From Bacteroidales bacterium (GTDB lineage: Bacteria > Bacteroidota > Bacteroidia > Bacteroidales > P3): a stretch of DNA of 60,740 nt. The stretch spans positions 1 to 60,740 of the forward strand of contig JAFSQF010000111.1 of the NCBI GenBank assembly GCA_017446745.1, given 5' to 3'. This document shows, one piece after another, positions 721 to 47,652 of the stretch. The notes under the pieces are model-generated. The model did not search any database, had not been told where the DNA came from, and worked only from the letters and a program-made list of their open reading frames with translations. The position numbers were made by a program, and so were the translations under genes. The first letter of the stretch is position 1; every line of letters begins with the position of its first letter.

Positions 721-1008
721 TTAATCTAGAGGAGGCCAACCATCAGAAAGAGACACTTCCCTTCCGTCAGGATCTCCCGGCTTCACAGGGTTCCACGCAC
801 AATAAGCATACGGCGAGATAGATGGGTACTTGTCGGCCAGCGGGTCGACGGAGAGCCACATGGTCATCAGTTCGTGGTCCATGTATCTCGCGCCGAAATA
901 GCCGTAGCCTGTTTCAGTGTCTCTCTCTTTGCCGGTGGAAACAAAGGGGTAAAACCGTATGGTTTGCATGCGGCTTACCCCCTTCTTTTTGATTGTTGGA
1001 CAGTTCAT
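721..1008 (-). pseudogene. Rhs core fragment with lost toxin tip
   Basis: This 95-codon frame encodes an Rhs-associated core end: GKERDTETGYGYFGARYMD, then the WLSVDPLADKYPSISPYAY block and NPVKPGDPDG. Only about a dozen residues follow the DPDG boundary before the stop, where sister cassettes carry 100-200-residue variable tips. It therefore cannot encode a complete toxin. The core matches those at 1441-2307 and 2669-3517, and the fragment is the last cassette of the array in its direction of reading. It may serve as recombination substrate for tip exchange or be a dead relic. Confidence 0.75.
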
Positions 1009-1067
1009 TTAGTTACTGTTTTCTCTTGGGATTTCTGTATTGTGACAAGTACAAATCTCTCGTCCAT

Positions 1068-1472
1068 TCACAGATGAGTAACGCAATATATCACATTACT
1101 GTTTACGGTATCAATATATAGTCTTTTTACATCTTCGTCCGAAAATAGTGTTCGGTAATAACCACTAGTATTGTTCAAATAAAGATAAATTATATCATTC
1201 GTATCAGAGTTGGTGAATATATATGGTTGAAACAATTCTTTGGCACGGATAATAATGTTGCTATCTTTTATTGAATAAACATAAACGCATGTGAAATCCG
1301 AATTTAATCCGCACGATTCTTCTCGTTTCATTGTTTCCATACGCATACTTCCTTTTATATTCGTCTCTAAGATATCGGAAATATCATCGATAGGATTGTA
1401 GCATGCACAAAAAAACAGAAAACAAGGAATAAAAAATAAATTACGGATAACTAACTTTAAATTTTTTCCCAT
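1068..1472 (-). CDS. Small lipoprotein, likely immunity protein
   Basis: The 134-residue product begins with a basic N-terminus and hydrophobic stretch ending in FFCAC, a plausible lipoprotein signal with Cys at about 24. The rest is polar, with no family recognised. Its start lies 32 bases inside the 3' end of the Rhs toxin cassette at 1441-2307, the coupled arrangement typical of toxin-immunity pairs. That position is the main reason to call it an immunity protein. A lipid anchor would place it in the periplasmic leaflet, suiting a toxin that acts in the envelope. Function is inferred from context only. Confidence 0.6.
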   Translation of the reverse strand: MGKNLKLVIRNLFFIPCFLFFCACYNPIDDISDILETNIKGSMRMETMKREESCGLNSDFTCVYVYSIKDSNIIIRAKELFQPYIFTNSDTNDIIYLYLNNTSGYYRTLFSDEDVKRLYIDTVNSNVIYCVTHL

Positions 1473-2307
1473 TCCCTATAATATTAGATGCCGCTGCAAC
1501 GGCACGAGTTTGTATTTCATTTTTCAACGCTCTCTGACCAAGTTTCTTTGGATCGAAATCATAAGTGTCTTTGAAACCTGTTATTCTTTGCTTTCCATCT
1601 AGAGTAACAGTTGCACTTCCAAAAGCGAGAGAGTACTCCTGACTATCATAGAAATTAATTAATTTGCTTTTGCTATCAGATTCTGTCGGAGACTGGTTGC
1701 TTTCTTTTATATACATTAGAATCCCTGCAAATTGGCTTCCTGTCAGTGTTATGTCACCTTCTCCATTCCAGAAGTTTGTAAACAAATCTTTTGCTATTCC
1801 GGAACCCGCTTTTTGCCGAATAAAATTTCCTGTTTTCCCCAAGTCAATATCTGAATGTGCTTCCATTGTCCCATGATCAATCTCAAAAACATCACCTTCT
1901 CTTAAATTTAGCACCCCTTTCGAGTTGACAGAGTAACCTTGTTCTTCAAGCATATTGGTGGCAATTTCAGGTGTTGTATTTAAGTATGTAGCCAAAGTCC
2001 AAGCGTTGTCTCCCTTTTCTGCTACAAGGTTTCTATTTTCATCAGGTTTCCATGCTTCATTCCCATCAGGGTCAACCAATTTAATTGGATTCCACACACA
2101 ATAGTTGTAGGGACTTATGCCGGGATACTTATCAGCCATCGGGTCAACGCTGAGCCACATGGTCATCAGCTCGTGATCCATATAGCGGGCACCGAAGTAC
2201 CCGTAGCCGGTCTCCTCGTCGCGTTCTTTGCCGGTGAAAACAAAGGGGCAATACCGCATGGTTCTTGTGCGGTTTACCCCTTTGGTTTTATGTACTGATG
2301 TCGTCAA
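1441..2307 (-). CDS. Rhs cassette with variable C-terminal toxin domain
   Basis: The 288-residue protein has the Rhs core end at about residues 25-80 (GKERDEETGYGYFGARYMD, WLSVDPMADKYPGISPYNY, DPDGNE). It continues into a LysM-like stretch (about 90-140) and a unique tip with the pattern DTYDFDP...KNEIQTRAVA near the C-terminus, resembling uncharacterised polymorphic toxin tips. It lacks the thousand-plus residues of YD repeats, signal peptide and shell of a full Rhs protein. It is therefore an orphan cassette rather than an independently secreted toxin. The stop overlaps the following lipoprotein gene by 32 bases. The true start is uncertain, since orphan cassettes may be expressed only after recombination into a full-length gene. 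Confidence 0.7.
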   Translation of the reverse strand: MTTSVHKTKGVNRTRTMRYCPFVFTGKERDEETGYGYFGARYMDHELMTMWLSVDPMADKYPGISPYNYCVWNPIKLVDPDGNEAWKPDENRNLVAEKGDNAWTLATYLNTTPEIATNMLEEQGYSVNSKGVLNLREGDVFEIDHGTMEAHSDIDLGKTGNFIRQKAGSGIAKDLFTNFWNGEGDITLTGSQFAGILMYIKESNQSPTESDSKSKLINFYDSQEYSLAFGSATVTLDGKQRITGFKDTYDFDPKKLGQRALKNEIQTRAVAAASNIIGNGKKFKVSYP

Positions 2308-2336
2308 TTATTTGTCGTTATCATTTGTTCCTTCTA

Positions 2337-2660
2337 TCAATAAGTATGAAATGTTCCAAATCTTACATGCCCATACTCTTCAAGAGAAATGGCTGTTTTA
2401 AGTAGGTTGTCGGCGATGTTTCTCCCGCAAATCAGCCGGTCTTGCAAAGTTGAAACCTCTGATAGTTCTACGAAATCAAACTCAAGATCACGCGCGTAAT
2501 CCTTTATCAACGCGACAAACTCCTTCTGGCTATGTGCTTTTGCAATTAAGTTAACATATGCTCCAGCAACATCACCAAGCATCTCATCGTTTTTTTTCGT
2601 GGTCTTAATATGGAGAATTCCATACCAAATATCTGGATAATTAGTTTTATTAGAATCCAT
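2337..2660 (-). CDS. Putative cytosolic immunity protein
   Basis: This 107-residue soluble protein (MDSNKTNYPDIWYGILHIK at the start, VRFGTFHTY at the end) has no signal sequence. It resembles small immunity-type proteins found beside Rhs tips, but no named family is claimed. It follows the cassette at 2669-3517. If the frameshift in that cassette is corrected, the toxin stop (2650-2652) falls inside the first codons of this gene, an 11-base overlap that implies translational coupling. A cytosolic immunity protein fits a tip that looks like a nuclease rather than an envelope-acting toxin. Confidence 0.65.
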   Translation of the reverse strand: MDSNKTNYPDIWYGILHIKTTKKNDEMLGDVAGAYVNLIAKAHSQKEFVALIKDYARDLEFDFVELSEVSTLQDRLICGRNIADNLLKTAISLEEYGHVRFGTFHTY

Positions 2661-2668
2661 GATGAGGG

Positions 2669-3517
2669 CTATTGGGTTTCTTTAATCCGTTTCTGTCTGT
2701 TGGATGATAGTGTGGTTCCCCCACTTTGGGAGATGGGTGTTTTACTGGTCGACCTTTTCCTTGATTTCTTGCCGCATCTTTGGCTTTTTTTTTGTGTGGG
2801 GTGATGGACTGTATTTACCCTAGGCTTACCACTTCCCCCTAAAACATTTCCATAGCGATCTGTTTTCTGTCCAGCGGAGGTTTGAACATCATCATTGCCA
2901 TTATCTGTAGCGCATTGACGGGTATCACCAGAGAATAATAAGCTGGCTGGTATTATCCATGCAATTGTAGCAACTGCTTCAATGGCTACTCCAGCAGCAG
3001 TGGAAAGTCGTTCTAGTAATAAGGCACCGATTGGAACTGCAATAGGAGCAGCAATGTTTGCGTCCATTTCTGTTGTGGATGCATCAGCGGTTATGTTTAC
3101 TTCTGCTAAATGTACAGAGGTATGCAACCTCCCTTGCTCATCCCCATAAACAGTTTGTCCTTCACTGTTGGTCAATAATACGGTTTTACCCAAGTATTCC
3201 TCACCATCTTTCAATGTTGTCTCTTTTGTAACAGAAGGATTCCACTTAAGCCGACCTTTTTCATCTTTATACCAATCATCATTGTCTATCGCTTCATTTC
3301 CATCCGGGTCAACCAACCTCACCGGATTCCAGGCACAATAGGCATATGGAGAAATACTCGGGTACTTGTCCGCCAGCGGGTCGACGGAGAGCCACATGGC
3401 CATCAGCTCGTGGTCCATATAGCGGGCACCGAAATAGCCGTAGCCGGTTTCCTCGTCGCGCTCTTTGCCGGTGAAAACAAAGGGGTAATACTGCGTGTTT
3501 TGAGTGCGCTTTGTCAT
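2669..3517 (-). CDS. Rhs cassette with frameshifted toxin tip
   Basis: As it stands the frame encodes 282 residues: the Rhs core end (GKERDEETGYGYFGARYMD, DPDGNE), a spacer, a hydrophobic stretch at about 150-195 (AAPIAVPIGALLLE... WIIPASLLFSG) and a tip beginning GKPRVNTVHHPTQKK. After a run of nine A (plus-strand T-run 2785-2793) the frame becomes arginine/serine-rich and meaningless. Removing one A restores a coherent tip with KDAARNQGKG, PVKHPSPK and HYHPTDRNG, a His-rich pattern found at the ends of other Rhs toxins. That frame ends at 2650-2652, overlapping the immunity gene. The gene is thus either inactivated, slippage-switched, or misread in the homopolymer. The tip is plausibly a nuclease, which is inference. 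Confidence 0.7.
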   Translation of the reverse strand: MTKRTQNTQYYPFVFTGKERDEETGYGYFGARYMDHELMAMWLSVDPLADKYPSISPYAYCAWNPVRLVDPDGNEAIDNDDWYKDEKGRLKWNPSVTKETTLKDGEEYLGKTVLLTNSEGQTVYGDEQGRLHTSVHLAEVNITADASTTEMDANIAAPIAVPIGALLLERLSTAAGVAIEAVATIAWIIPASLLFSGDTRQCATDNGNDDVQTSAGQKTDRYGNVLGGSGKPRVNTVHHPTQKKSQRCGKKSRKRSTSKTPISQSGGTTLSSNRQKRIKETQ

Positions 3518-21277: not shown

Positions 21278-21793
21278 ATGACTACTTTAAAAACGAATAT
21301 TGCAGGCGGGGACAGCCGCGTACCGACTTTATCCTTAAAGCGCATTCTTTTTGTTGATGGGCTGCTGATTGCTGCAATGTGCCTTGTCCCTGCGATGTCG
21401 CATGCTTTTTCATTGCCACTCTATAAGCTTAATCCAATGCTGCTGTGCCTCCTTGCAGGCATGGTGATGGTGTCGGATTGGCGCAATGCTCTGCTTCTTG
21501 GCGTGTTGTTGCCAGTGGTATCGATGCTTGTGGTGGGTATGCCAACCCCTTCAACGGCTCTGTGTATGGTGGCCGAGCTTGTCTCGGTTGTCGCTGTTTT
21601 TCACCTTACGGAGAGGCGAATGCCGACTTTTGTGTCTCTCTTTGGCGCAATGGTGTTTGGTAAAATAATGTATTATGGAATGAAAGCCCTTGTGGTCGGC
21701 CCCTCTGTACTGATAACCACCAATCCGTGGATTCAGTTGGCCTCGATGCTTGTTTTTTGCACCCTGTTTGCCGTCATCTACAGGAAACGTTAA
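21278..21793 (+). CDS. Integral membrane protein, possible ECF transporter S component
   Basis: This 171-residue protein has five or six hydrophobic segments. The pattern SLPLYKLNPMLLCLLAGMVMVSDWRNALLLG, then LLPVVSMLVVGMPTP, resembles substrate-binding S components of ECF vitamin transporters, although no energising A or T subunit is nearby. Residues 8-16 (IAGGDSRVP) are encoded by a copy of the dispersed GCAGGCGGGGAC repeat. The gene starts a tight run with the cytidylyltransferase (11-base gap), so it may instead serve that pathway. Substrate unknown. Confidence 0.6.
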   Translation: MTTLKTNIAGGDSRVPTLSLKRILFVDGLLIAAMCLVPAMSHAFSLPLYKLNPMLLCLLAGMVMVSDWRNALLLGVLLPVVSMLVVGMPTPSTALCMVAELVSVVAVFHLTERRMPTFVSLFGAMVFGKIMYYGMKALVVGPSVLITTNPWIQLASMLVFCTLFAVIYRKR

Positions 21794-21804
21794 GCTGGCA
21801 ATAG

Positions 21805-22530
21805 ATGGAAAGGCGCAGGAACATTGCCGTGGTGCTGGCTGGAGGGTCAGGCCGACGTCTGGGAGGCGACATGCCAAAGCAGTTCCTCACCATCGCCGGG
21901 CGTCGCGTTGTTGAATACACCATCGATGTGTTTGAGCGCAACGCTGCAATCAACGAGGTGGCTGTGGTCGTCAATCCCTTGTACTTGAGCCTAATGAGGG
22001 AGATTGTAGAGAGCAACCGCTGGACTAAAGTGCACCAGTTGCTCCAAGGTGGCGAGGAACGCTATCTGTCGACCCTCTCGGCTATCGAGGCCTATAAAGG
22101 ATGCGGCCCCTGCAACCTGATATTCCACGATGCCGTGCGTCCTTTGGTGTCCGACCGCGTCATCAGCGATGTGGTAGAGGCATTGGAAAGGCACGACGCT
22201 GTCGGTGTCGCCGTTCCTCTTACCGACACCTTGTTCAAAATGAGAGAGCATGGCGATGAAGTGGAGGCGGTGCCACCCCGGAACTTGTTGCGCCGAGCCC
22301 AGACACCTCAGGCTTTCCGCTACGAGGTGATAGCGAAGGCCTACGGAAAAGCATTGTCCGACCAGGATTTCGTGACCACCGACGACTGCTCAGTGGTGCT
22401 GCGCTATATGCCCGAGGTGTCGATTCACGTGGTAGAGGGCGAAGAAAGCAATATTAAGCTCACCTACAGGGATGACATTACATTGATAGAACAATTTTTA
22501 GAAAAGAAAAAAACAACTTCCAACGATTAA
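21805..22530 (+). CDS. IspD/TarI family cytidylyltransferase
   Basis: The 241-residue enzyme transfers CMP from CTP to a sugar-alcohol phosphate. The nucleotide-binding loop AGGSGRRLGGDMPKQF is at 13-28, followed by GGEERYLST, FHDAVRPLVS and GEESNIKLTYRDD. The family contains IspD (methylerythritol phosphate, isoprenoid synthesis) and TarI-type ribitol-phosphate enzymes. HDAVRP, rather than the HDAARP usual in IspD, and the downstream CDP-glycerol phosphotransferase and UDP-galactopyranose mutase genes favour a polyol-phosphate substrate for a surface polymer. Housekeeping IspD remains possible, since no other copy is visible in the window. Confidence 0.85.
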   Translation: MERRRNIAVVLAGGSGRRLGGDMPKQFLTIAGRRVVEYTIDVFERNAAINEVAVVVNPLYLSLMREIVESNRWTKVHQLLQGGEERYLSTLSAIEAYKGCGPCNLIFHDAVRPLVSDRVISDVVEALERHDAVGVAVPLTDTLFKMREHGDEVEAVPPRNLLRRAQTPQAFRYEVIAKAYGKALSDQDFVTTDDCSVVLRYMPEVSIHVVEGEESNIKLTYRDDITLIEQFLEKKKTTSND

Positions 22531-22546
22531 ATAATTACCTTACACT

Positions 22547-23848
22547 ATGAATAAATTCGGCTACCGTTTCCGGCTCATGATGGCCTATCGCGACGCCTTG
22601 CGTACCCGCCTGCCTTTTCTTTATAAACGTATGATCGACAATGCCCACGACCGTGCCGTGGCAGCAGCTCATAGGCTCAAGGACAAGGATAGGATAGAGG
22701 TGGCTTTCCTGCTCACTATCCCGGGGATGTGGAAACTGGACTATGTCTTCAGGCTTATGCAGCAGAGCGGTCGCTATCATCCCTATGTGGTAATCTATCC
22801 CTATTCACAATTCAAAGGTTTTGATAAAAAGGAGCTTTCGAACACCGTGCGCCGTACCGAGGACTTCATAAAGCAACGCGGCTTCGAATATGTGATACCC
22901 TACGATGAAAAGACTGGCACATGGAATGACATCCGTAAAAGCCTCAACCCCGACATCGTTTTCTTTACCACCCCTTACCGCGACATTCTGCCCTCTTATT
23001 ACTATTACAATTTCAAAGACAAGCTGACGTGCTATGTCCCTTATTCATTTTTGACGCTGAATCTTTATAAGCTGAATTATAATCAGATATCTGTAAATCT
23101 CTTTGGCCTTAATTTTGCCGAGACAGATATGCACCTCGAATTTGCCAAGAAATACAGTCCGACGCATGGCCGCAACTTCGTTGCTACGGGCTATCCAGGC
23201 ATCGAGGTGTACTCCCGAAACGACTATGTGTCGCCCGATGTGTGGCGGCAGCAAGAGACTACGAAAAAACGCGTGATATGGGCCCCGCACCATACCATCG
23301 ACGACAGCGATAACTTCCAGATTTCGACGTTCCTCATCTTTTGCGAAACGATGCAGCAGCTCGCCAAAGAGTATGCCGGAAGCATCCAGTTCGCTTTCAA
23401 ACCCCACCAGCTCTTGAAATTCAAACTTGAGAAGCTTTGGGGCGTAGAACGGACAGAGGTCTATTACCGCTTCTGGGCCGAAACCCCGAACTGCCAGCTC
23501 GAAGAGTCGGGCTACGTAGACCTTTTCATCCATTCCGATGCTATGATTCATGATAGCGGCAGCTTCACATCAGAATACCTATGCCTCGGAAAACCTGTGA
23601 TGTTCCTTATACAAGGATCTGATGCCGAGAAGCAATTCAACGACTTCGGCGTTATGGCTTTCAGACAACACTATCACGGAAAGACTGTCGATGATATCCG
23701 CCATTTCCTTGACAACGTGGTTCTTCGTGGCGACGACCCCATGCGCGCCTCTCGCGACGCTTTCAAACATCAGTATCTGGGCCCTCGCGATGGCTTACTG
23801 CCTTCGCAGTGCATCATGAATGCCATAGAGGATATGATAAATGGTTGA
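22547..23848 (+). CDS. CDP-glycerol glycerophosphotransferase family protein
   Basis: This 433-residue enzyme probably transfers a polyol phosphate from a CDP-polyol onto a glycan, as in teichoic-acid-type polymers. Its C-terminal GT-B half shows RVIWAPHHTI, FAFKPHQLL (His of the KPH motif) and DAMIHDSGSFTSEYLCLGKPVMF, the acid/nucleotide-binding signature of the TagF-like family. The N-terminal 150 residues carry an alpha/beta domain (EVAFLLTIPGMWKL). It lies 16 bases after the cytidylyltransferase, which could make its donor, and just ahead of glf. Bacteroidota lack wall teichoic acid, so the acceptor is more likely capsule or LPS. Confidence 0.85.
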   Translation: MNKFGYRFRLMMAYRDALRTRLPFLYKRMIDNAHDRAVAAAHRLKDKDRIEVAFLLTIPGMWKLDYVFRLMQQSGRYHPYVVIYPYSQFKGFDKKELSNTVRRTEDFIKQRGFEYVIPYDEKTGTWNDIRKSLNPDIVFFTTPYRDILPSYYYYNFKDKLTCYVPYSFLTLNLYKLNYNQISVNLFGLNFAETDMHLEFAKKYSPTHGRNFVATGYPGIEVYSRNDYVSPDVWRQQETTKKRVIWAPHHTIDDSDNFQISTFLIFCETMQQLAKEYAGSIQFAFKPHQLLKFKLEKLWGVERTEVYYRFWAETPNCQLEESGYVDLFIHSDAMIHDSGSFTSEYLCLGKPVMFLIQGSDAEKQFNDFGVMAFRQHYHGKTVDDIRHFLDNVVLRGDDPMRASRDAFKHQYLGPRDGLLPSQCIMNAIEDMING

Positions 23849-23859
23849 TTGTGCCGGCT

Positions 23860-24969
23860 ATGAAGACGTATGACTTTATAGTTGTCGGTGCCGGACTTTT
23901 TGGCTCGGTCTTTGCTCATGAAGCTGCAAGGCAGGGCAAGAGTTGCTTGGTGGTGGAACGGCGCAAACATATCGGCGGTAATTGTTACACCAAGAACGTC
24001 AATGGCATCAATGTGCACTGGTATGGCGCCCATATCTTCCACACCTCCGACGAGGCCGTTTGGGAATACATGAACCGCTTTTGCCGCTTCAACCACTACG
24101 TCAACAGCCCCATCGCCAACTATAAAGGGCAGCTCTACAACCTGCCTTTCAACATGAACACTTTCTGCAAGCTTTGGCCCGACGTGCATACGCCCGACGA
24201 GGCTCGCGCGCGCATAGCGCAGCAGCAGGCCGAGTTCGCCGACATCACGGAGCCGCGCAACCTGCTCGAACAAGGCATGAAACTGGCCGGACGCGACATC
24301 TTCGAAAAACTGGTGAAAGGCTATTCCGAGAAGCAATGGGGACGCCATGCTGAACAAATCCCCGCTTCCGTGCTGCGCCGCTTGCCTATGCGTTTCACGT
24401 TCAACAACAACTATTTCGACGACCCCCATCAGGGTATTCCCATCGGCGGATATACACCAATATTCGATAAACTTTTGGATGGCGTCGAGGTGCAACTCGG
24501 AACCGATTTCTTGGCCCATCGTAACGTGCTGACGGCTATGGCTGATAGAATCCTCTTCACAGGACCTCTTGATGCCTATTTCAACTATCGGCTGGGCCAT
24601 CTGGATTGGCGCTCGTTGCGTTTTGACCACCAGCTGAAACGGGGCATGGACAATTTCCAGGGCAACGCTGTGTTCAACTTCACGGATGCCGAGACGCCCT
24701 ACACCCGTATCTTGGAGCACAAGCATTTCGAATTCGGCCAGCAGCCCGACACCGTGGTTACCTATGAATATCCTTCTGAATGGAAGCCTGGCGACGAACC
24801 CTTTTATCCCGTCAACGATGCGCGCAACGAAGCCCTTGCCGCCGACTACCGTAAAATGGCGGCCTCCGAACCTAATGTGAGTTTCGGAGGCCGCCTGGGC
24901 GAATACAAGTATTATGATATGGATATAACCGTGGCGCAAGCCCTGCGCCATCCATGGCTTCACGAGTGA
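23860..24969 (+). CDS. glf: UDP-galactopyranose mutase
   Basis: Glf is a flavoenzyme that converts UDP-galactopyranose to UDP-galactofuranose for surface glycans. From ATG 23860 the 369-residue product starts with the FAD-binding motif VVGAGLFGS (residues 8-16), then RRKHIGGN, the GAHIFHT block, KGYSEKQWG and PIGGYTPIF, and ends with the flavin-contacting LGEYKYYDMD. Length is typical. The start lies 11 bases after the preceding stop; an earlier in-frame ATG overlaps that gene. Galactofuranose and a polyol-phosphate transferase side by side suggest one polysaccharide assembly unit. Confidence 0.95.
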   Translation: MKTYDFIVVGAGLFGSVFAHEAARQGKSCLVVERRKHIGGNCYTKNVNGINVHWYGAHIFHTSDEAVWEYMNRFCRFNHYVNSPIANYKGQLYNLPFNMNTFCKLWPDVHTPDEARARIAQQQAEFADITEPRNLLEQGMKLAGRDIFEKLVKGYSEKQWGRHAEQIPASVLRRLPMRFTFNNNYFDDPHQGIPIGGYTPIFDKLLDGVEVQLGTDFLAHRNVLTAMADRILFTGPLDAYFNYRLGHLDWRSLRFDHQLKRGMDNFQGNAVFNFTDAETPYTRILEHKHFEFGQQPDTVVTYEYPSEWKPGDEPFYPVNDARNEALAADYRKMAASEPNVSFGGRLGEYKYYDMDITVAQALRHPWLHE

Positions 24970-40379: not shown

Positions 40380-40991
40380 ATGTCGATGGAAAAAGGTTAT
40401 CTGAAAATAGACCAATACGACCAGCAATGTGTCGATGAAATGGCATCACATTATAAAGAAATCCTGCGCCTGCTGGGCGAAAATCCCGAACGCGAAGGCT
40501 TACTGAAGAGCCCGGAGCGAATCGCTAAGGCCATGCTTTTCTTCACCAACGGCTACGACCTCGACCCCGAATCGATCCTGCGCTCCGCCATGTTCCACGA
40601 GGACTATAAGCAGATGGTGGTGGTCAAGGACATAGAGCTCTATTCGCTCTGCGAGCATCACATGGTGCCTTTCGTGGGCAAAGCCCATGTGGCATATATA
40701 CCGAATGGCACCATAGTGGGACTGAGCAAAATCCCACGGGTGGTGGATGCCTACGCCCGACGGCTGCAGGTGCAGGAACGCCTCACTAAACAGATAAAGG
40801 ATTGCATCCAAAACACACTGCAACCGCTCGGTGTGGCCGTTGTGATTGAGGCCCAGCACATGTGCATGTCGATGCGCGGCGTGCAGAAACAGAATTCCGT
40901 GACCACTACGAGCGACTTCACCGGAGCCTTCCTCAACAGCCCAAAAACCCGCGAGGAATTCATGCATATCATCGGCGTCGACCTTCATTGA
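40380..40991 (+). CDS. folE: GTP cyclohydrolase I
   Basis: The 203-residue enzyme converts GTP to 7,8-dihydroneopterin triphosphate for folate or queuosine-type pathways. Zinc ligands are visible: Cys91 and His94 in [10 protein letters not shown], and a later Cys in [31 protein letters not shown] is the signature helix. Length fits. It stands alone, 45 bases before the phosphonate genes, but no functional link to them is apparent. Confidence 0.96.
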
Positions 40992-41036
40992 ACGAGATAT
41001 ATTGTTTGATTGTTGAATTAAATATAGTAAATAAAA

Positions 41037-43046
41037 ATGAAAGCTTTAATATTGAACAGCGGACTCGGTTCGCGCATGGGTGTCATTACCAAAGACCACC
41101 CCAAATGCATGACCGAAATATCATACAAGAGCACAATCCTCAGCCGCCAGCTGCACCAGCTTGTGTCGTTCGGAATCAAAGACGTGGTAATCACCACCGG
41201 GTATTACGACCAGGTGCTGGAGGACTATTGCAATGCCCTCCACCTACCCCTGAACATCAAGTTCGTGAACAACCCGCTCTACGACAAGACCAACTACATC
41301 TATAGTATCTACTGCGCCAAGGAGCAGTTGAAGGATGAGGACATCATTCTGATGCATGGCGATCTGGTCTTCGAGAGCTTGGCGATGGAGGCTGTGATAG
41401 ACTGCCCCAAAAGCTGTATGGCGGTGAGCAGCACCTCGCCTCTTCCCGAGAAGGATTTTAAGGCTGTCATCAAGGATGGACGCATTGAGAAGGTTGGCAT
41501 TGAGTACTTTGACCATGCTATGGCAGCACAGCCACTCTACAAACTCAATAAAGAGGATTGGAACATCTGGCTTGACAACATCGTTAAGTTCTGCGAGAGC
41601 GACAACCGCAAATGCTATGCAGAGAATGCCTTCAACGAAGTGAGCGACAAGTGCAAGCTTTATCCTTGCGATGTGAAAAATATGCTCTGTGCAGAGATTG
41701 ACACCCCAGAAGACCTGGAGGTGGTCAGCAAGAAAGTGGCTGAAATCAACGAACGAACGGTGTATATGTGCTTCAGCACGGAGTACATCCATAGTGGCCA
41801 TATAGCCATCATCAACAAGGCCCGACGATTGGGGCGTCTGATAGTGGGAGTGCTGAGCGATGAGGCGGTGAGCAGTTTCAAACGCTACCCTCTGATTCCC
41901 TTTGCAGAGCGCAAGGCGTTGTTCGAGAACTTGGCAGGCGTGGAGCGTGTAGTGACACAGGACACCCTCTCCTACGCCAAGGTGCTGCGAGAGCTGAAAC
42001 CCGACTATGTGGTGCACGGCAACGACTGGTGCGAAGGCTTCCAGAAACCAATCCGCCAGGAGGTCTGCGAAGTGCTGGCCGAGTATGGCGGCAAGTTGGT
42101 GGAATACCCTTATAGCAACAGTCCGCAGTATAAAGAGTTGGACGCAGCCCACCGAGCAGAAGCCGCAATGCCGGATGTGCGTCGTGGCCGTTTGCGCAAG
42201 CTCATCAATATGAAAGGGCTGGTAACGGCTATGGAGGCACATAGCGGTATCACCGGTCTGATAGTGGAGAAGACCACCGTGCTCCAGGATGGCAAGACTT
42301 ATCAGTTTGATGCCATGTGGGTGAGCTCGCTTTGCGACTCCACCGCCAAGGGTAAACCTGACATTGAATTGGTGGATATGACCAGCCGTTTCCGCACCAT
42401 CGACGACATTATGGAGGTGACCACCAAACCCATCATCTTCGACGGTGATACGGGAGGACTGACGGAACACTTTGTCTATACCGTCCGTTCGCTGGAGCGT
42501 ATGGGTGTGAGCATGATTATCATTGAGGACAAAACCGGCCTGAAGAAGAACAGCCTCTTTGGGAATGAGGTGAAGCAGACGCAGGACAGCATCGAACATT
42601 TCTGTGAGAAGATACGAGCCGGCAAGCACGCTCAGAAGACCAAGGAGTTTATGATCTGCGCACGTATCGAGAGCCTGATTCTGGAGCGGGGAATGGAAGA
42701 TGCACTCACGCGAGCCATGGCATTCACTGAGGCTGGAGCTGATGCCATAATGATTCATAGCCGCAAGAAAGACCCGGCAGAAATCTTCGAGTTCGTTGAG
42801 ATGTTCCGTGCGAAGAACACCACCACACCGATCGTGGTCGTTCCCACCAGCTTCAATACCGTGACCGAGCAGGAGTTCAAGAGAAGGGGCGTCAACGTGG
42901 TTATCTACGCCAACCAGCTCACCCGCACCGGTTTCCCAGCCATGCAGGATGCTGCCCGTACCATATTGGAGAACCACCGCGCCAAAGAGTGCGACGACAA
43001 ATGCATGAGCATTAAGGAAATCATAACGCTGATTCCAGAAGAATAG
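41037..43046 (+). CDS. Three-domain nucleotidyltransferase / cytidylyltransferase-like / PEP mutase
   Basis: The 669-residue protein joins three enzymes. Residues 1-235 are an NTP-transferase of the LicC type (LNSGLGSRMG, HPKCM at 21-25, MHGDL at 106-110, EIDTPEDL at 220-227). Residues 242-375 are a cytidylyltransferase-like Rossmann domain with the HxGH motif HSGH at 252-255 and VVHGNDW at 325-331. Residues 385-669 are PEP mutase: MWVSSLCDS, DGDTGG (469-474) and EDKTGLKKNS (497-506), the last specific for mutases over lyases. PEP mutase makes phosphonopyruvate from PEP, the entry to nearly all biological phosphonates. The N-terminal domain probably activates a phosphonate with CTP. The decarboxylase gene follows 36 bases later. 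Confidence 0.9.
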   Translation: MKALILNSGLGSRMGVITKDHPKCMTEISYKSTILSRQLHQLVSFGIKDVVITTGYYDQVLEDYCNALHLPLNIKFVNNPLYDKTNYIYSIYCAKEQLKDEDIILMHGDLVFESLAMEAVIDCPKSCMAVSSTSPLPEKDFKAVIKDGRIEKVGIEYFDHAMAAQPLYKLNKEDWNIWLDNIVKFCESDNRKCYAENAFNEVSDKCKLYPCDVKNMLCAEIDTPEDLEVVSKKVAEINERTVYMCFSTEYIHSGHIAIINKARRLGRLIVGVLSDEAVSSFKRYPLIPFAERKALFENLAGVERVVTQDTLSYAKVLRELKPDYVVHGNDWCEGFQKPIRQEVCEVLAEYGGKLVEYPYSNSPQYKELDAAHRAEAAMPDVRRGRLRKLINMKGLVTAMEAHSGITGLIVEKTTVLQDGKTYQFDAMWVSSLCDSTAKGKPDIELVDMTSRFRTIDDIMEVTTKPIIFDGDTGGLTEHFVYTVRSLERMGVSMIIIEDKTGLKKNSLFGNEVKQTQDSIEHFCEKIRAGKHAQKTKEFMICARIESLILERGMEDALTRAMAFTEAGADAIMIHSRKKDPAEIFEFVEMFRAKNTTTPIVVVPTSFNTVTEQEFKRRGVNVVIYANQLTRTGFPAMQDAARTILENHRAKECDDKCMSIKEIITLIPEE

Positions 43047-43082
43047 CTAACGAACACAAAATTCACTAATCAAATAAAAAAA

Positions 43083-44207
43083 ATGATTAGACCAGAATAC
43101 TTTATAGAGAAACTTAGGGAGAACGGCATCGACTGTTTCTCCGGTGTGCCGGACTCGCTGTTGAAGAATATCTGTGCGTATATCACCGACCATTGCGATG
43201 CAGAGCATAACATCATAACCGCCAACGAAGGCGCCGCGGTGGGTATTTCTGCCGGCCATTATCTGGCAACAGGCAAGCCCGCCTGTGTGTATATGCAGAA
43301 CAGTGGAGAGGGAAACATCATCAATCCGTTGGCATCGCTGACAGATGAAGAGGTGTATAACATCCCCGTACTGCTGCTGATAGGGTGGCGAGGCCGTCCG
43401 GGTGTTCACGACGAGCCGCAGCACGTGAAGCAAGGCAAGGTTACAACCGGGCTGCTGAATGTGATGGGTGTGAACTATGAGGTACTCTCTAAGGAAGAGG
43501 ACAAAGCAGAGAAACAGATTGCCAAGGCTATAAAGGCTCTTCAAGACAAGGAAGTATTCGCTTTGGTAATAGAGAAGGATACTTTTGAGGATTATACACT
43601 ACAGAATGTGGAGGTCAATGACCTTACCATGAGCCGGGAAGAGGCCATCAGGACGGTGGCTGCTGCTCTTGGTGAAAAGGACTGTATTGTGAGTACAACG
43701 GGTATGATAAGCCGTGAACTGTTCGAGTACCGTGCTGGTATGAGCCAAGGACACGAGCGAGACTTCCTGACGGTAGGCTCTATGGGACACGCCTCGCAGA
43801 TTGCCTTGGGTATCGCAATGGCAAAGCCAGACCGGAAGGTATGGTGCTTCGACGGGGATGGTGCTGCCATTATGCACATGGGCAGTATGGCCATTGTGGC
43901 CAACAAGGCGCCAAAGAACTATCTACATGTGGTGTTCAACAATGGTGCTCACGACAGCGTGGGTGGACAGCCTACGGTTGGTTTGAAGATAGACCTGCCT
44001 GCTGTCGCCCGTGCTGTAGGGTATAAGCATACAAGCAGCGTGGATAGCAAGGAGGCTCTTGCAGAGACTTTGAAGACTATCGTGGCAAAGGAAGGCCCCT
44101 CATTGTTGGAGGTTAAGGTAAAGAAGGGCAACCGCAAGGATCTTGGTCGCCCGACGACTACGCCTATTCAGAACAAAGAAGCTTTGATGGCATTCTTGAA
44201 GGACTAA
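43083..44207 (+). CDS. Phosphonopyruvate decarboxylase
   Basis: This 374-residue thiamine-diphosphate enzyme pulls the unfavourable PEP mutase reaction forward by decarboxylating phosphonopyruvate to phosphonoacetaldehyde. It has an N-terminal PYR domain (FSGVPDSLLKNI, catalytic Glu in TANEGAAVGISAGHY) and C-terminal PP domain with the ThDP-binding GDGAAIMHMG...NNGAHDSVGGQ. The order pyrimidine then pyrophosphate domain, with no central domain, and the length match the Ppd family (about 375-400). It directly follows PEP mutase and precedes the dehydrogenase, one operon by spacing. Confidence 0.93.
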   Translation: MIRPEYFIEKLRENGIDCFSGVPDSLLKNICAYITDHCDAEHNIITANEGAAVGISAGHYLATGKPACVYMQNSGEGNIINPLASLTDEEVYNIPVLLLIGWRGRPGVHDEPQHVKQGKVTTGLLNVMGVNYEVLSKEEDKAEKQIAKAIKALQDKEVFALVIEKDTFEDYTLQNVEVNDLTMSREEAIRTVAAALGEKDCIVSTTGMISRELFEYRAGMSQGHERDFLTVGSMGHASQIALGIAMAKPDRKVWCFDGDGAAIMHMGSMAIVANKAPKNYLHVVFNNGAHDSVGGQPTVGLKIDLPAVARAVGYKHTSSVDSKEALAETLKTIVAKEGPSLLEVKVKKGNRKDLGRPTTTPIQNKEALMAFLKD

Positions 44208-44240
44208 AATTTCTGTGTAATCTGTGATATCTGTGTGAGT

Positions 44241-45365
44241 ATGAGTCAAAAGATAATAAATGGAATAGATAAGCTTCCGGGCATCCTGCAAGAAGTGGGA
44301 TGCCAAAGGCTCTTCCTTCTGATAGATTCCTCCTATCCATTCCTGAACATCAAGAATGCGATAGAGGCAATGCCTGTGGTGAAGGTGAAGTTCTCAGACT
44401 TCACACCCAATCCGCTGTATGAGCAGGTGTGCAAGGGAATAGAGCTGATGAAAGAATCCAAGAGTGATACCATTCTTGCCGTTGGTGGCGGTAGTGCCAT
44501 TGATGTGGCCAAGTGTATAAAACTGGCGGTTTTGGCAGAAGAGGGGGATGCTGCTATTATTCCACCATTAGTCTCGCAGCGGCTTCCAATTGAGGGGGGC
44601 AAGATTCCGTTTGTTGCCGTTCCTACTACGGCAGGCACAGGTAGTGAGTCCACGCATAATGCTGTGATGTATTATGAAGGGGCAAAACAGACAGTCACCA
44701 ATGATGGCATTCTGCCGGAATATGCAGTGCTGGAGCCTTCCGTACTTAAGACCTTGCCGGACTATCAGAAGAGATGCACTATGCTGGATGCCCTAAGCCA
44801 GGGGATAGAATCATGGTGGTCAATCCATAGCACCGAAGAGAGTAGGGAGTATTCCAAGAGGACTGTGGTGCTGATAATGGCAAATTGGCGCAAGTATATC
44901 TTTGAGAATGATTCAGCAGCTGCAGCACAGATAATGATGGCAGCCAATTATGGAGGAAGGGCGATAAATATAGCAGAGACCACGGCACCACATGCAATGA
45001 GTTATAAGATTACATCGAAGTATGGCTTGCCACATGGACATGCGGTAGCCGTATGCCTGCCAGAGGTTTGGCAGTATATGACCGATAATATGAAAGAGGT
45101 AAAAGATAAGCGTGGCAGCAGATATTTGGAAATGGTGTTTGCAGAAATAGCACATGCAATGGGTTTCGATAAGGTAGGCGAAGCAATCGCCCAATTCCGA
45201 CAGATGATGCACGAAATGGGGATGCTGTATCCCAAATCAGATAATATAGTTGCGGATTTGAAAGAGCTAACCGAGTCCGTCAATCCTGTAAGATTAAAGA
45301 ATAATCCCATAAGTATTGACGAGGATATTGCCTATGCTCTTTACTCACGAATCATAAATGCATAG
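44241..45365 (+). CDS. Iron-type alcohol dehydrogenase, likely phosphonoacetaldehyde reductase
   Basis: The 374-residue group III dehydrogenase has NAD-binding VGGGSAIDVAK, PTTAGTGSE and metal ligands in DALSQGIES, HAMSYKIT and GLPHGHAVAVCLP. Its position after phosphonopyruvate decarboxylase, in the place where aminotransferase PhnW is found in aminoethylphosphonate clusters, suggests reduction of phosphonoacetaldehyde to 2-hydroxyethylphosphonate, as done by PhpC-type enzymes. Base composition is more AT-rich than its neighbours, hinting that this gene was acquired separately. A GTG two codons upstream is an alternative start. A terminator lies 136 bases downstream. Confidence 0.85.
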   Translation: MSQKIINGIDKLPGILQEVGCQRLFLLIDSSYPFLNIKNAIEAMPVVKVKFSDFTPNPLYEQVCKGIELMKESKSDTILAVGGGSAIDVAKCIKLAVLAEEGDAAIIPPLVSQRLPIEGGKIPFVAVPTTAGTGSESTHNAVMYYEGAKQTVTNDGILPEYAVLEPSVLKTLPDYQKRCTMLDALSQGIESWWSIHSTEESREYSKRTVVLIMANWRKYIFENDSAAAAQIMMAANYGGRAINIAETTAPHAMSYKITSKYGLPHGHAVAVCLPEVWQYMTDNMKEVKDKRGSRYLEMVFAEIAHAMGFDKVGEAIAQFRQMMHEMGMLYPKSDNIVADLKELTESVNPVRLKNNPISIDEDIAYALYSRIINA

Positions 45366-45500
45366 TACTGCAGAAGAATCATAATAAGCTATCGATACTA
45401 TCTAATTCAGAAATCAGATGTGAAACCGCGGGGCCTGCTGCAAGCCTTTTTTCCATTCCAGGTCCCTATATTTTTTTACCGCTATTCAACAGGCAATAAA

Positions 45501-45532
45501 AAAGCATCCATCCGATAGGGAATGGATGCTTT
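45501..45532. terminator. Bidirectional terminator after the phosphonate genes
   Basis: AAAGCATCCAT and ATGGATGCTTT form an 11-bp perfect stem around a 10-base loop, with an A-run before it. It lies between two convergent genes. Confidence 0.8.
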
Positions 45533-45606
45533 CATTAGTATTCTTATAACGTTGTTGTCGTTGGCTTGGTGGCTTCCGAACCTGCTTTGTTCGGGGGCTG
45601 TTTGTT

Positions 45607-46194
45607 CTATTCCACCAAGGAGAAGACCAGGTTCTGGAAGAAGCTCAGGAAGAGGGTGGCAAAAGCGTCGTTGGGGTCCTCGGCCTGGACAGGCATGTTG
45701 ACAAGCATGGTGTTGTCGGTGGCGTTGTAGGAGAAGTTGAGGACTATTTCTACGGGATCACCTTCTGTAATCTCATAAACGGTGCCTTCCATAGTGCCCA
45801 GGTTGGTGGTGAGGTCGTAGTTGAAGTCGAAGTCGATGGTGGTGCTTTCGCCGGCGAACTGCACGAAGACCACGTCGGTGCTGTCGCTGTTGATGCTCAG
45901 CTGAAGTGCATCGCCATCATCGTTGAAGTTGAGACGGAAGTCAACGCTGATAGGAAGCCCAAAGCTGTTGGTGCTGTCCATCATCGGAATGAAGGCGGAG
46001 AGGTCCATCGTGGTGTCAACGCTGCTAATCCATTCGGTACCGGCGAAGTTGTTGGCCTGGTTGGCCTTGATGGCATTGGCCGTCTCGACGTCGGAGACGG
46101 ACGGGGTGTTGACGAGGTTGTCGTTCTCTTTCGAGCAGGAGGCTGCTCCAATCATTAGGGCTGCGCCAAGGGCGATGGTGAAGATTTTTTTCAT
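45607..46194 (-). CDS. Acidic lipoprotein of unknown function
   Basis: The 195-residue protein has a lipoprotein signal (FTIALGAALMIGAASC, Cys20) and a mature domain rich in Asp, Asn and Thr with alternating beta strands (ISVDFRLNFNDDGDALQLSI, TTIDFDFNYDLTTNLGTMEG, VEIVLNFSYNATDN). The pattern resembles lipocalin-like or calycin-type lipoproteins of Bacteroidales, but no family is claimed. It is transcribed singly, divergent from pfk. Confidence 0.65.
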   Translation of the reverse strand: MKKIFTIALGAALMIGAASCSKENDNLVNTPSVSDVETANAIKANQANNFAGTEWISSVDTTMDLSAFIPMMDSTNSFGLPISVDFRLNFNDDGDALQLSINSDSTDVVFVQFAGESTTIDFDFNYDLTTNLGTMEGTVYEITEGDPVEIVLNFSYNATDNTMLVNMPVQAEDPNDAFATLFLSFFQNLVFSLVE

Positions 46195-46357
46195 TTTTTT
46201 TTTATTATAAATTAAAGGTTAATATTACAGCGTTTGTTTTTCTTTGAGCCTTTCTCACTCAGCCTCTCTTCCGATGCTCATTACGCTTATAAGAACGGCA
46301 AAATGACATAAAAAACTACAAAAGGTGAAAAAAAAATTCAAAAAAATAATTTTTTCG

Positions 46358-46365
46358 TAAATTTG
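46358..46365 (+). promoter_or_regulatory. Probable -7 element of pfk
   Basis: TAAATTTG followed by C matches the Bacteroidota -7 consensus 55 bases before the pfk start. Confidence 0.55.
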
Positions 46366-46419
46366 CAATTCAGTTGACTACAGCAAATATATTGTAAAAC
46401 CATTAAAACAAAATACATT

Positions 46420-47652
46420 ATGGCAAAAAGCATTGCAATTTTGACTGGTGGTGGCCCCGCTCCGGGAATGAATACGGTTGTTGCCTCGGTGGCAAAAACA
46501 TTCCTGCGCGATGGCTATCGCGTTATTGGCCTTCATGGCGGCTACTCGGCCCTCTTCACCGATAAGCCCCGTATGCAGGACCTCGATTTCCTCACCGCCG
46601 ACGAGATTTTCAACAAGGGTGGCTCAATCTTGAAGATGAGCCGCTTCAAACCTACCGACGAAGACTTCGAGAAACGCTTCAACCTGAAGCTCTTCACCGA
46701 CAACGAGGTGAAGCTCCTCGTCACGGTGGGTGGCGACGACACCGCCTCAACGGCCAACCGCATCGCCAAATTCCTTGAAAGCAAGCACTATCCCATAGCC
46801 AATATCCATGTGCCGAAAACCATCGACAACGACCTGCCGCTGCCCAACAGCTCGCCCACCTTCGGCTACAACAGCGCCAAAGCACAGGGTTGCGTGCTGG
46901 CCACCGCGGTGATGGAGGACGCCCGCACCAGCGAGAACTGGTTCGTGGTCAGCGCCATGGGACGCTCCGCCGGCCATCTGGCCTTGGGAATCGCCGGCGC
47001 TTGCCACTACCCCATGGTAATCATTCCGGAATTCTTCAACAAAACGGAGATCACGGTGGAGAAGATCGTCAACATGGTGGTGTCGTGTATCGTCAAACGC
47101 AAAATCATGGGTATCAATTATGGCGCCGCCATGATCTCGGAGGGTGTATTCCACAGCCTCAGCGACGAAGAGATAGCCAATTCCGGCATCCACTTCAGCT
47201 ACGACGAGCATGGCCATCCCGAACTGGGAAAAGTAAGCAAGGCACATATCTTCAACGACTTGCTGGAACGGAAAGTCAAGGAGCTCGGCCTTAAGGTCAA
47301 GTCTCGCCCCGTCGAGATAGGCTACGAAATCCGCTGCCATACCCCTATAGCATTCGACCTCACCTACTGCTCCCTGATGGGCATGGGCGTCCATACCCTC
47401 TTCAACCAGGGCTGCACCGGTTGCATGGTATACGTAGACCAGCAGGGCAACATCTCGCCGCTCTACCTCAAAGACCTTCAGGACCCCGTGACCGGCAAAA
47501 TACCTCCACGTCTTGTCAACGTCAACAGTAACAAGGTGATGTCGTATGTCAACGACATTATGGACTACATCACCCCTGCCGACTATGAGGACGCCAAAAA
47601 ATACCTCCCCAATCCCGAAGAATACGACTTCAAGCGCATCCTCGGTTGGTAG
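46420..47652 (+). CDS. 6-phosphofructokinase, pyrophosphate-type signature
   Basis: The 410-residue enzyme phosphorylates fructose 6-phosphate. It starts with ILTGGGPAPGMN (phosphoryl donor loop) and has catalytic Asp in PKTIDNDLP and the sugar-binding SAMGRSAGHLALG. The donor-site residues are GGDDT (104-108) and PKTIDND (132-138): Asp107 and Lys133 replace the two Gly (104 and 124 of E. coli Pfk) that accommodate ATP, the established signature of pyrophosphate-dependent PFK. The reaction would then be reversible and serve glycolysis and gluconeogenesis. It is a single gene with its own promoter and terminator. Confidence 0.93.
   Translation: MAKSIAILTGGGPAPGMNTVVASVAKTFLRDGYRVIGLHGGYSALFTDKPRMQDLDFLTADEIFNKGGSILKMSRFKPTDEDFEKRFNLKLFTDNEVKLLVTVGGDDTASTANRIAKFLESKHYPIANIHVPKTIDNDLPLPNSSPTFGYNSAKAQGCVLATAVMEDARTSENWFVVSAMGRSAGHLALGIAGACHYPMVIIPEFFNKTEITVEKIVNMVVSCIVKRKIMGINYGAAMISEGVFHSLSDEEIANSGIHFSYDEHGHPELGKVSKAHIFNDLLERKVKELGLKVKSRPVEIGYEIRCHTPIAFDLTYCSLMGMGVHTLFNQGCTGCMVYVDQQGNISPLYLKDLQDPVTGKIPPRLVNVNSNKVMSYVNDIMDYITPADYEDAKKYLPNPEEYDFKRILGW

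Follow-up and report, generated by a model that had tools for sequence, protein, structure and literature searches.

What is made by a phosphoenolpyruvate (PEP) mutase that carries two nucleotidyltransferase domains on the same polypeptide, and which of the two activates the product? The question is raised by a gene at 41037–43046 (+ strand) of contig JAFSQF010000111.1 (assembly GCA_017446745.1), from a Bacteroidales bacterium; ‘the window’ here means the whole 60,740-nucleotide stretch that was analysed. A decarboxylase gene and a dehydrogenase gene follow, and the three together probably form a cassette for 2-hydroxyethylphosphonate (HEP) activated with cytidine monophosphate (CMP), every reaction, substrate and acceptor in this proposal being predicted from sequence. 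The C-terminal domain of the fusion protein would convert PEP to phosphonopyruvate, the decarboxylase would convert phosphonopyruvate to phosphonoacetaldehyde, and the dehydrogenase would convert that to HEP. The N-terminal part of the fusion protein would then join HEP and cytidine triphosphate (CTP) to give CMP-HEP, most likely destined for a surface glycan, the HEP being placed on it, in relatives, by a transferase of the LicD or TagF type. The parts of the cassette are these:

41037..41741, + strand: LicC/PntC-like nucleotidyltransferase domain, residues 1–235 (Pfam; PDB matches 1jyk and 6pd1)
41754..42122, + strand: Fom1-type cytidylyltransferase (CyTase) domain, residues 240–362 (Pfam; PDB 5x3d; conservation)
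42192..43040, + strand: PEP mutase domain, residues 386–668, with EDKTGLKKNS at 497–506 (TIGR02320 above cut-off)
43083–44207, + strand: phosphonopyruvate decarboxylase (TIGR03297, 510.9 bits against a cut-off of 312.5)
44235–45365, + strand: iron-containing alcohol dehydrogenase, predicted phosphonoacetaldehyde reductase (PF00465/PF25137; Segatella copri homologue)

The fusion gene translates in a single frame, with zero internal stops, into 669 amino acids (aa). Pfam finds NTP_transf_3 at residues 3–114, CTP_transf_like at 251–343 and PEP_mutase at 386–644, all above cut-off. The NCBIfam PEP mutase model TIGR02320 scores 408.7 bits against a curated cut-off of 319.55 over residues 386–668, and this score and the EDKxxxxxNS motif together identify the C-terminal domain as a PEP mutase. 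The LicC-like domain displays a GLGSR...PK loop, HGD (107–109), E196 and EID (220–222); the CyTase displays HSGH (252–255), KR (282–283), HGNDW (327–331) and GFQKPIR (334–340). An initial annotation, made from the letters alone, had named a LicC-like domain, an HxGH cytidylyltransferase and a PEP mutase; its calls and motif positions prove exact to the residue, and the Pfam search that it proposed returned three domains, all over their cut-offs. Its interpretation as a whole is partly supported: the domains, the HEP branch and the logic of CMP activation are supported, whereas the supposed unusualness of a PEP mutase with two nucleotidyl-type domains is not.

Proteins of this kind are, in fact, already in the literature. 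The window protein combines PF12804, PF01467, PF13714 and the Ppm motif, the features that define the triple fusions of Rice et al. 2019 (PMC6697681), who counted 42 of these among 1485 PEP mutases (2.8%). Novelty of the double nucleotidyl fusion was rejected on that account: the window fusion is real, but of a published type, and a common one in rumen and gut Bacteroidales and in Clostridia. The published triples have the same three domains in one protein, and the accessible part of Rice et al. 2019 assigns them neither function, gene neighbours nor substrate; set against that account, what is added here is the link to a HEP cassette and an invariant histidine in the LicC-like site. No other literature on triple fusions was found by title or abstract opening, in searches that covered subscription journals thinly.

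When genome contigs were scanned with the fusion, 188 relatives came up, and the 80 best were retained (some of these may overlap the 42 of Rice et al.). In each of the 80 the match starts at residue 1 or 2 and extends to residue 649 or further, the best segment being 73–91% identical, and because the fusion recurs at near full length in 80 of 80 kept loci it is not a chance product. The survey of PEP mutase fusions suggested at the outset thus yields at least 80 near-full-length triple loci, and the fusion is not rare. Record titles among the best 80 are of Bacteroidales and Clostridia; the closest relatives are largely uncultured rumen and gut Bacteroidales, and isolates are represented by Xylanibacter ruminicola D31d (on two contigs), Bacteroides cutis, Ruminococcus sp. 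FC2018 and Lachnospiraceae LC2019. Searches of phage and plasmid records contributed one further triple locus, that of S. copri, so that the set considered below comprises 82: the window, the 80 kept loci and S. copri. (L024 and L059 are one record, counted once; L035 is without the CyTase and is not a triple.) No triple fusion occurs among viral contigs, where 14 loci match, each only from residue 234 or beyond. Two unannotated ‘Bacteriophage sp.’ records from human faeces (H21, MT837901.1, and H22, MT836947.1) encode fusion relatives, and are perhaps mislabelled bacterial contigs. Within the family to which the window belongs, PEP mutase is matched at E 1e-40 in 38 of 190 genomes, and in four of the 38 (G000, G134, G028 and G151) the match is a contiguous triple fusion. 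Scans for PEP mutase across the class Bacteroidia (1/395 genomes, the window's own) and across the order (19/393) served for sampling only. The triples are monophyletic on both the PEP-mutase and the CyTase tree (21 of the 82 sampled; support 1.0 each). Because they form one clade, within which Bacteroidales and Clostridia are intermixed on the PEP-mutase tree, the trees suggest a single origin followed by transfer between phyla.

The two genes behind the fusion gene point to HEP. The phosphonopyruvate decarboxylase of the initial annotation is borne out by its TIGR03297 score. The dehydrogenase, placed there in group III, does have the iron-containing alcohol dehydrogenase domain (PF00465), but falls short of the cut-off of its nearest NCBIfam model (TIGR03405, 137.3 bits against 423.7); it is 66% identical to its S. 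copri homologue, which the record names phosphonoacetaldehyde reductase. The aminotransferase that had been reported missing is indeed not to be found: the genome, 91.86% complete, holds no aminoethylphosphonate (AEP) transaminase (AEPT) above cut-off, the best TIGR02326 match reaching 37 bits against 400.8, where a true AEPT from a relative scores 289. With a dehydrogenase present and a transaminase not found, the predicted HEP branch is supported. Neighbours were counted in all 82 triple loci, query-source loci included; the window was searched over its full 60 kb, and several loci end at a contig edge. On this count, the decarboxylase and the dehydrogenase each occur in 76 loci, and together in 75; two loci have a weak AEPT-like match. 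Gene order is triple–decarboxylase–dehydrogenase in 46 loci and triple–dehydrogenase–decarboxylase in 29. AEP as the product was rejected, the transaminase being found neither in the genome nor, two weak matches aside, in the triple loci.

Which substrate does the LicC-like domain accept? Its PDB matches are 1jyk, a CTP:phosphocholine cytidylyltransferase, and 6pd1, Tde-PntC-AEPT. In Rice et al. 2019 (PMC6697681), two PntC enzymes are shown to transfer CMP with a preference for AEP, Glu104 and Glu196 of Tde-PntC face the amine of AEP, and PntC enzymes are expected to activate varied, still-to-be-found phosphonates. The window domain resembles Tde1415 (PntC-AEPT) and Ari-PntC in being a LicC-like phosphonate cytidylyltransferase, by its motifs, with a GxG..R...PK loop and metal-site acids; unlike Tde1415, it is fused to PEP mutase rather than to a transaminase, has His107 in place of Glu104, and belongs to a cassette without AEPT. 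The GXG(T/S)R...PK loop of PntC is represented in the window by GLGSR and PK (of 81 aligned rows, a minority have S or T at position 12), and R13, P22-K23 and the metal-site EID at 220–222 are kept in 82/82 triples. Two other hallmarks of PntC are incomplete or missing. The pair of acids at the substrate amine is reduced to one: all 82 triples read HGD, with H107 at the Glu104 position, and all 82 keep E196, aligned with the second amine-facing acid through a weak second stretch in which it meets the LicC Asp. The other hallmark, an AEPT in the pathway, is lacking above cut-off in the genome. Because the acid that faces the AEP amine is an invariant histidine in the triples, the LicC-like domain is best read as a PntC variant whose substrate most likely has no amine; a histidine next to a glutamate would suit a hydroxyl better than it would an ammonium group. 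HEP is the best guess for that substrate, being the only non-amine end product predicted for the cassette.

By sequence, the nearest PDB entry to the middle domain is 5x3d (E 1.7e-35 with a single sequence, 8.5e-48 with a profile), a record named phosphoenolpyruvate phosphomutase that we take to be the CyTase domain of Fom1, of fosfomycin biosynthesis. Like Fom1, the window protein has a CyTase N-terminal to PEP mutase, with HxGH, KR and an HGDDW-type motif (here HGNDW), and a HEP branch; unlike Fom1, it has an extra LicC-like domain at the N-terminus and GFQxPIR instead of GVQxxTR. Both 5x3d and most of the 39 two-domain HEP proteins described below have a GVQxxTR-like segment after HGDDW; the triples have GFQ or GLQ variants instead, in 82/82 (GFQKPIR in the window), and since these are conserved among triples the segment looks changed rather than decaying. 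It differs again in nine CyTases of the AEPT type. HxGH is intact in 80 of the 82 triples, the exceptions being L075 (HSAH) and S. copri (NSAH). The ratio of nonsynonymous to synonymous substitution rates (dN/dS) was compared in 19 pairs (at least one domain is saturated in eight). Wherever a dS value was obtained, the ratio is 0.00–0.17 for each of the three domains, which is purifying selection, so that both nucleotidyltransferase domains are maintained. The CyTase lags the PEP mutase more in triples than in two-domain proteins, a difference from which, the two sets differing in breadth, we draw no conclusion. The Fom1 CyTase is described as a CMP-HEP maker in work cited by Rice et al. 2019 (PMC6697681). 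None of six proteins from 40380–47652 has a fosfomycin tailoring enzyme as its best match in Pfam or NCBIfam.

Two-domain CyTase–PEP mutases offer a comparison. The 51 Bacteroidales loci examined comprise 36 of 36 listed at the family level and 15 of 16 at the order level (G735, at a contig end, was omitted), and some stretches are short, ending with the contig. Where a dehydrogenase but no AEPT is present, HxGH is intact in 39/39 (HPGH), and no separate LicC-like domain is found at E 1e-6 within the fetched stretches of those 39. Where an AEPT is present, the second histidine of HxGH is lost in 9/9 (HPGL in eight, HPGI in one), and a separate LicC-like domain occurs in 9/9, fused to AEPT in L213; these domains read ESD, like Tde-PntC, in 9/9. 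(One of the AEPT calls was checked in NCBIfam, where it passes, with TIGR03301 at 449.2 against 360.8 bits; the others are by BLAST similarity.) The remaining three loci have neither branch enzyme in the stretch (L027 and L259, HPGH; L276, HPGL). On a plain reading of these motifs, the fused CyTase would serve HEP, and in AEP-making pathways would be dead, with a PntC-type domain taking over. The HxGH and ESD/HGD patterns are, as sequence comparisons, a new result here. On the PEP-mutase tree the nine AEPT proteins fall in two places (eight together, and L213 with L276), and their nesting among HEP proteins is supported at just 0.55–0.64. The CyTase tree groups the nine with L276 in a single clade (0.987) and puts the 39 HEP proteins in a second (0.88–0.90). 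Given the weak nesting and the single CyTase clade, coupling of AEPT to HxGH loss as two independent events is not established; the loss could be a single event, or the CyTase clade could reflect convergence of decayed domains. The tree result weakens only a claim of repeated switching, on which the CMP-HEP proposal does not depend.

Seven two-domain loci (L026, L034, L252, L254, L255, L256 and L257) share a cluster in which CyTase(HPGL)–PEP mutase is accompanied by a decarboxylase, an AEP transaminase, a relative of CDP-alcohol phosphotransferases and a long protein that bears a LicC domain. In L026, the one run through Pfam, the LicC-bearing protein is an LPG_synthase_TM–LicC fusion. Clusters of the L026 type look like a pathway for AEP lipids (phosphonolipids) in Bacteroidales. 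On contig 67 of G000, the source of both L022:17094–18902 (−) and L023:120–1121 (−), a 602-aa fusion joins a LicC-like domain to a CobD-like pyridoxal-phosphate decarboxylase/aminotransferase; nearby are a CDP-alcohol phosphotransferase and a protein from the same sequence cluster as the LPG_synthase_TM–LicC protein of L026. This fusion perhaps belongs to a separate head-group or lipid pathway.

How, then, is the work divided between the two nucleotidyltransferase domains? It seems somewhat more likely that the LicC-like domain, rather than the CyTase, is the main HEP-activating site, because S. copri retains the cassette and a TagF-like gene despite its NSAH CyTase. Two other arrangements differ from this one only in the division of labour. 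The CyTase alone might make CMP-HEP, as in Fom1, with the LicC-like domain activating some other phosphate or phosphonate that lacks an amine; a single protein would then supply two CMP/CDP donors. The intact HxGH of 80 triples, the 39 two-domain HEP loci without a LicC domain in their stretches, and the purifying selection on both domains all favour this; yet no second pathway accompanies the cassette in the compared loci, S. copri keeps its cassette with a broken HxGH, and the segment after HGDDW is unlike that of 5x3d and the two-domain HEP proteins, so that we consider the arrangement possible, if doubtful. Alternatively, one of the two domains might be a non-catalytic relic, structural or regulatory. 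There is precedent in the nine AEP-type CyTases that have lost the second histidine, and the NSAH of S. copri is in keeping with it, but the catalytic residues are present in 82/82 LicC-like domains and HxGH in 80/82 CyTases, and dN/dS is low in both domains in the pairs where it could be computed. A relic is rather unlikely, and the CyTase as that relic is disfavoured by its 80 intact HxGH motifs.

An altogether different possibility is that the cassette makes AEP after all, that the LicC-like domain is an ordinary PntC, and that the transaminase is encoded elsewhere. Tde-PntC is among the PDB matches of the domain, E196, one of the two amine-facing acids, is kept, and the genome is incomplete. 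Set against this are the lack of any AEP transaminase above cut-off in that genome, the 76 of 82 triple loci with a dehydrogenase as opposed to two with a weak AEPT-like match, and HGD in place of ESD; we regard it as very improbable.

For the window itself, transfer to an acceptor is the least secure step, because the cassette stands alone in this genome and LicD was not detected in it. The initial annotation foresaw attachment to a glycan or lipid, and for a glycan this is supported in relatives: of the 82 triple loci, 41 have a LicD relative nearby, 14 a TagF-like gene, and 47 one or the other. If only the 57 loci that extend 7 kb or more in both directions are considered, 37 have a LicD- or TagF-like gene and 20 have neither. 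The same-genus closest relatives of the fusion, L214/L045 (91%) and L024/L059 (87%), adjoin LicD-like genes. In S. copri DSM 18205 the triple fusion, 80% identical, lies on a plasmid record (NZ_CP085933), followed by the decarboxylase, a ‘phosphonoacetaldehyde reductase’, a ‘CDP-glycerol glycerophosphotransferase family protein’, an O-antigen polymerase, a flippase and glycosyltransferases. The three-gene makeup (aepX–aepY–phosphonoacetaldehyde reductase) is identical to that of the window, with the differences that the S. copri cassette sits inside a polysaccharide cluster, with polymerase and flippase, and that its CyTase reads NSAH. In the window, by contrast, the cassette sits between folE and genes for a lipoprotein and a phosphofructokinase, and no transferase adjoins. 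What the genome does offer is one PF04464 match and three CDP-alcohol phosphotransferase matches, the former in the window:

22547..23848, + strand: TagF/TarF-like (PF04464) transferase, a weak candidate user of CMP-HEP; no second one was detected in the genome (Pfam)

A homologue of this gene is directly downstream of a HEP cassette in L025, and in the window it occupies the slot after ispD, where relatives carry HEP genes. As a candidate HEP transferase it first seemed strong; the 34 of 38 genomes in which it occurs with no PEP mutase match weakened the case.

Several observations weigh against the CMP-HEP proposal as set out. The dehydrogenase exceeds the cut-off of no NCBIfam model. The retention of E196 in every triple leaves the argument for loss of the amine on one position, and the intact HxGH of 80/82 triples makes the CyTase hardly dispensable and a possible HEP site in its own right. 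The AEPT proteins are few and related to one another, so that their HxGH loss may be one event. In this genome the cassette is solitary, flanked by housekeeping genes. No LicD (PF04991) match was found there by a search that found LicD in 2 of 14 genomes, nor any LicD relative with the small LicD-like protein of L029 as query, a search that had no positive control. Lastly, the TagF-like gene, 17 kb upstream of the cassette, occurs in 38 of 190 family genomes, four of which have a PEP mutase match.

There is also a bolder arrangement. The LicC-like domain might represent a HEP-tuned PntC subfamily, marked by the change from Glu to His, and the CyTase pocket might have shifted to a second substrate, giving two CMP donors for one surface polymer; TagF-like enzymes could then possibly string HEP together through its free hydroxyl, as in teichoic acid. 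We think this quite unlikely, but if it were true, one protein would both form the C–P bond and load both CMP donors. For the CMP-HEP cassette more generally, the kept or lost HxGH and the choice of ESD or HGD would amount to a residue-level prediction of HEP or AEP surface chemistry, one that can be addressed with genes of cultured bacteria such as S. copri DSM 18205 and X. ruminicola D31d, and that, if true, would add common species of the rumen and gut to the bacteria with phosphonates on the cell surface.

The surroundings call for a few further remarks. The assembly is of 2.79 Mb, and the window is its contig 44. GC skew is positive across the cassette and negative on either side, which may hint at an insertion between folE and the phosphofructokinase gene. 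Local gene order is not conserved: in 20 same-genus genomes, neither folE nor any other of the 13 window proteins tested lies beside the phosphofructokinase gene in the flanks taken upstream of that gene (0/20; one flank is just 3.1 kb). Past the dehydrogenase gene is one more feature, in a scanned region that contains eight terminator-like hairpins against a shuffle mean of 5.8 (standard deviation 2.6):

45509..45602, + strand: two weak terminator-like hairpins (consensus scan only)

The TagF-like gene belongs to a group at 21278–24969 that encodes a small membrane protein, IspD, the transferase itself and UDP-galactopyranose mutase. The IspD is probably the housekeeping enzyme, because the genome has no close second copy (next match E 9e-4). 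In relatives such as L028–L032 the slot after ispD is filled by HEP genes. L025, from genome G028, which also has a triple, contains a second HEP cassette (L025:10471–17582) of CyTase–PEP mutase, decarboxylase and dehydrogenase, after which come a TagF-like gene, a glycosyltransferase gene and one for a protein resembling flavin amine oxidases. Elsewhere in the window, on the − strand at 721–3517, three open reading frames start with a near-identical stretch (GKERD.ETGYGYFGARYMDHELM), and these starts look like what we take to be Rhs-type repeat ends.

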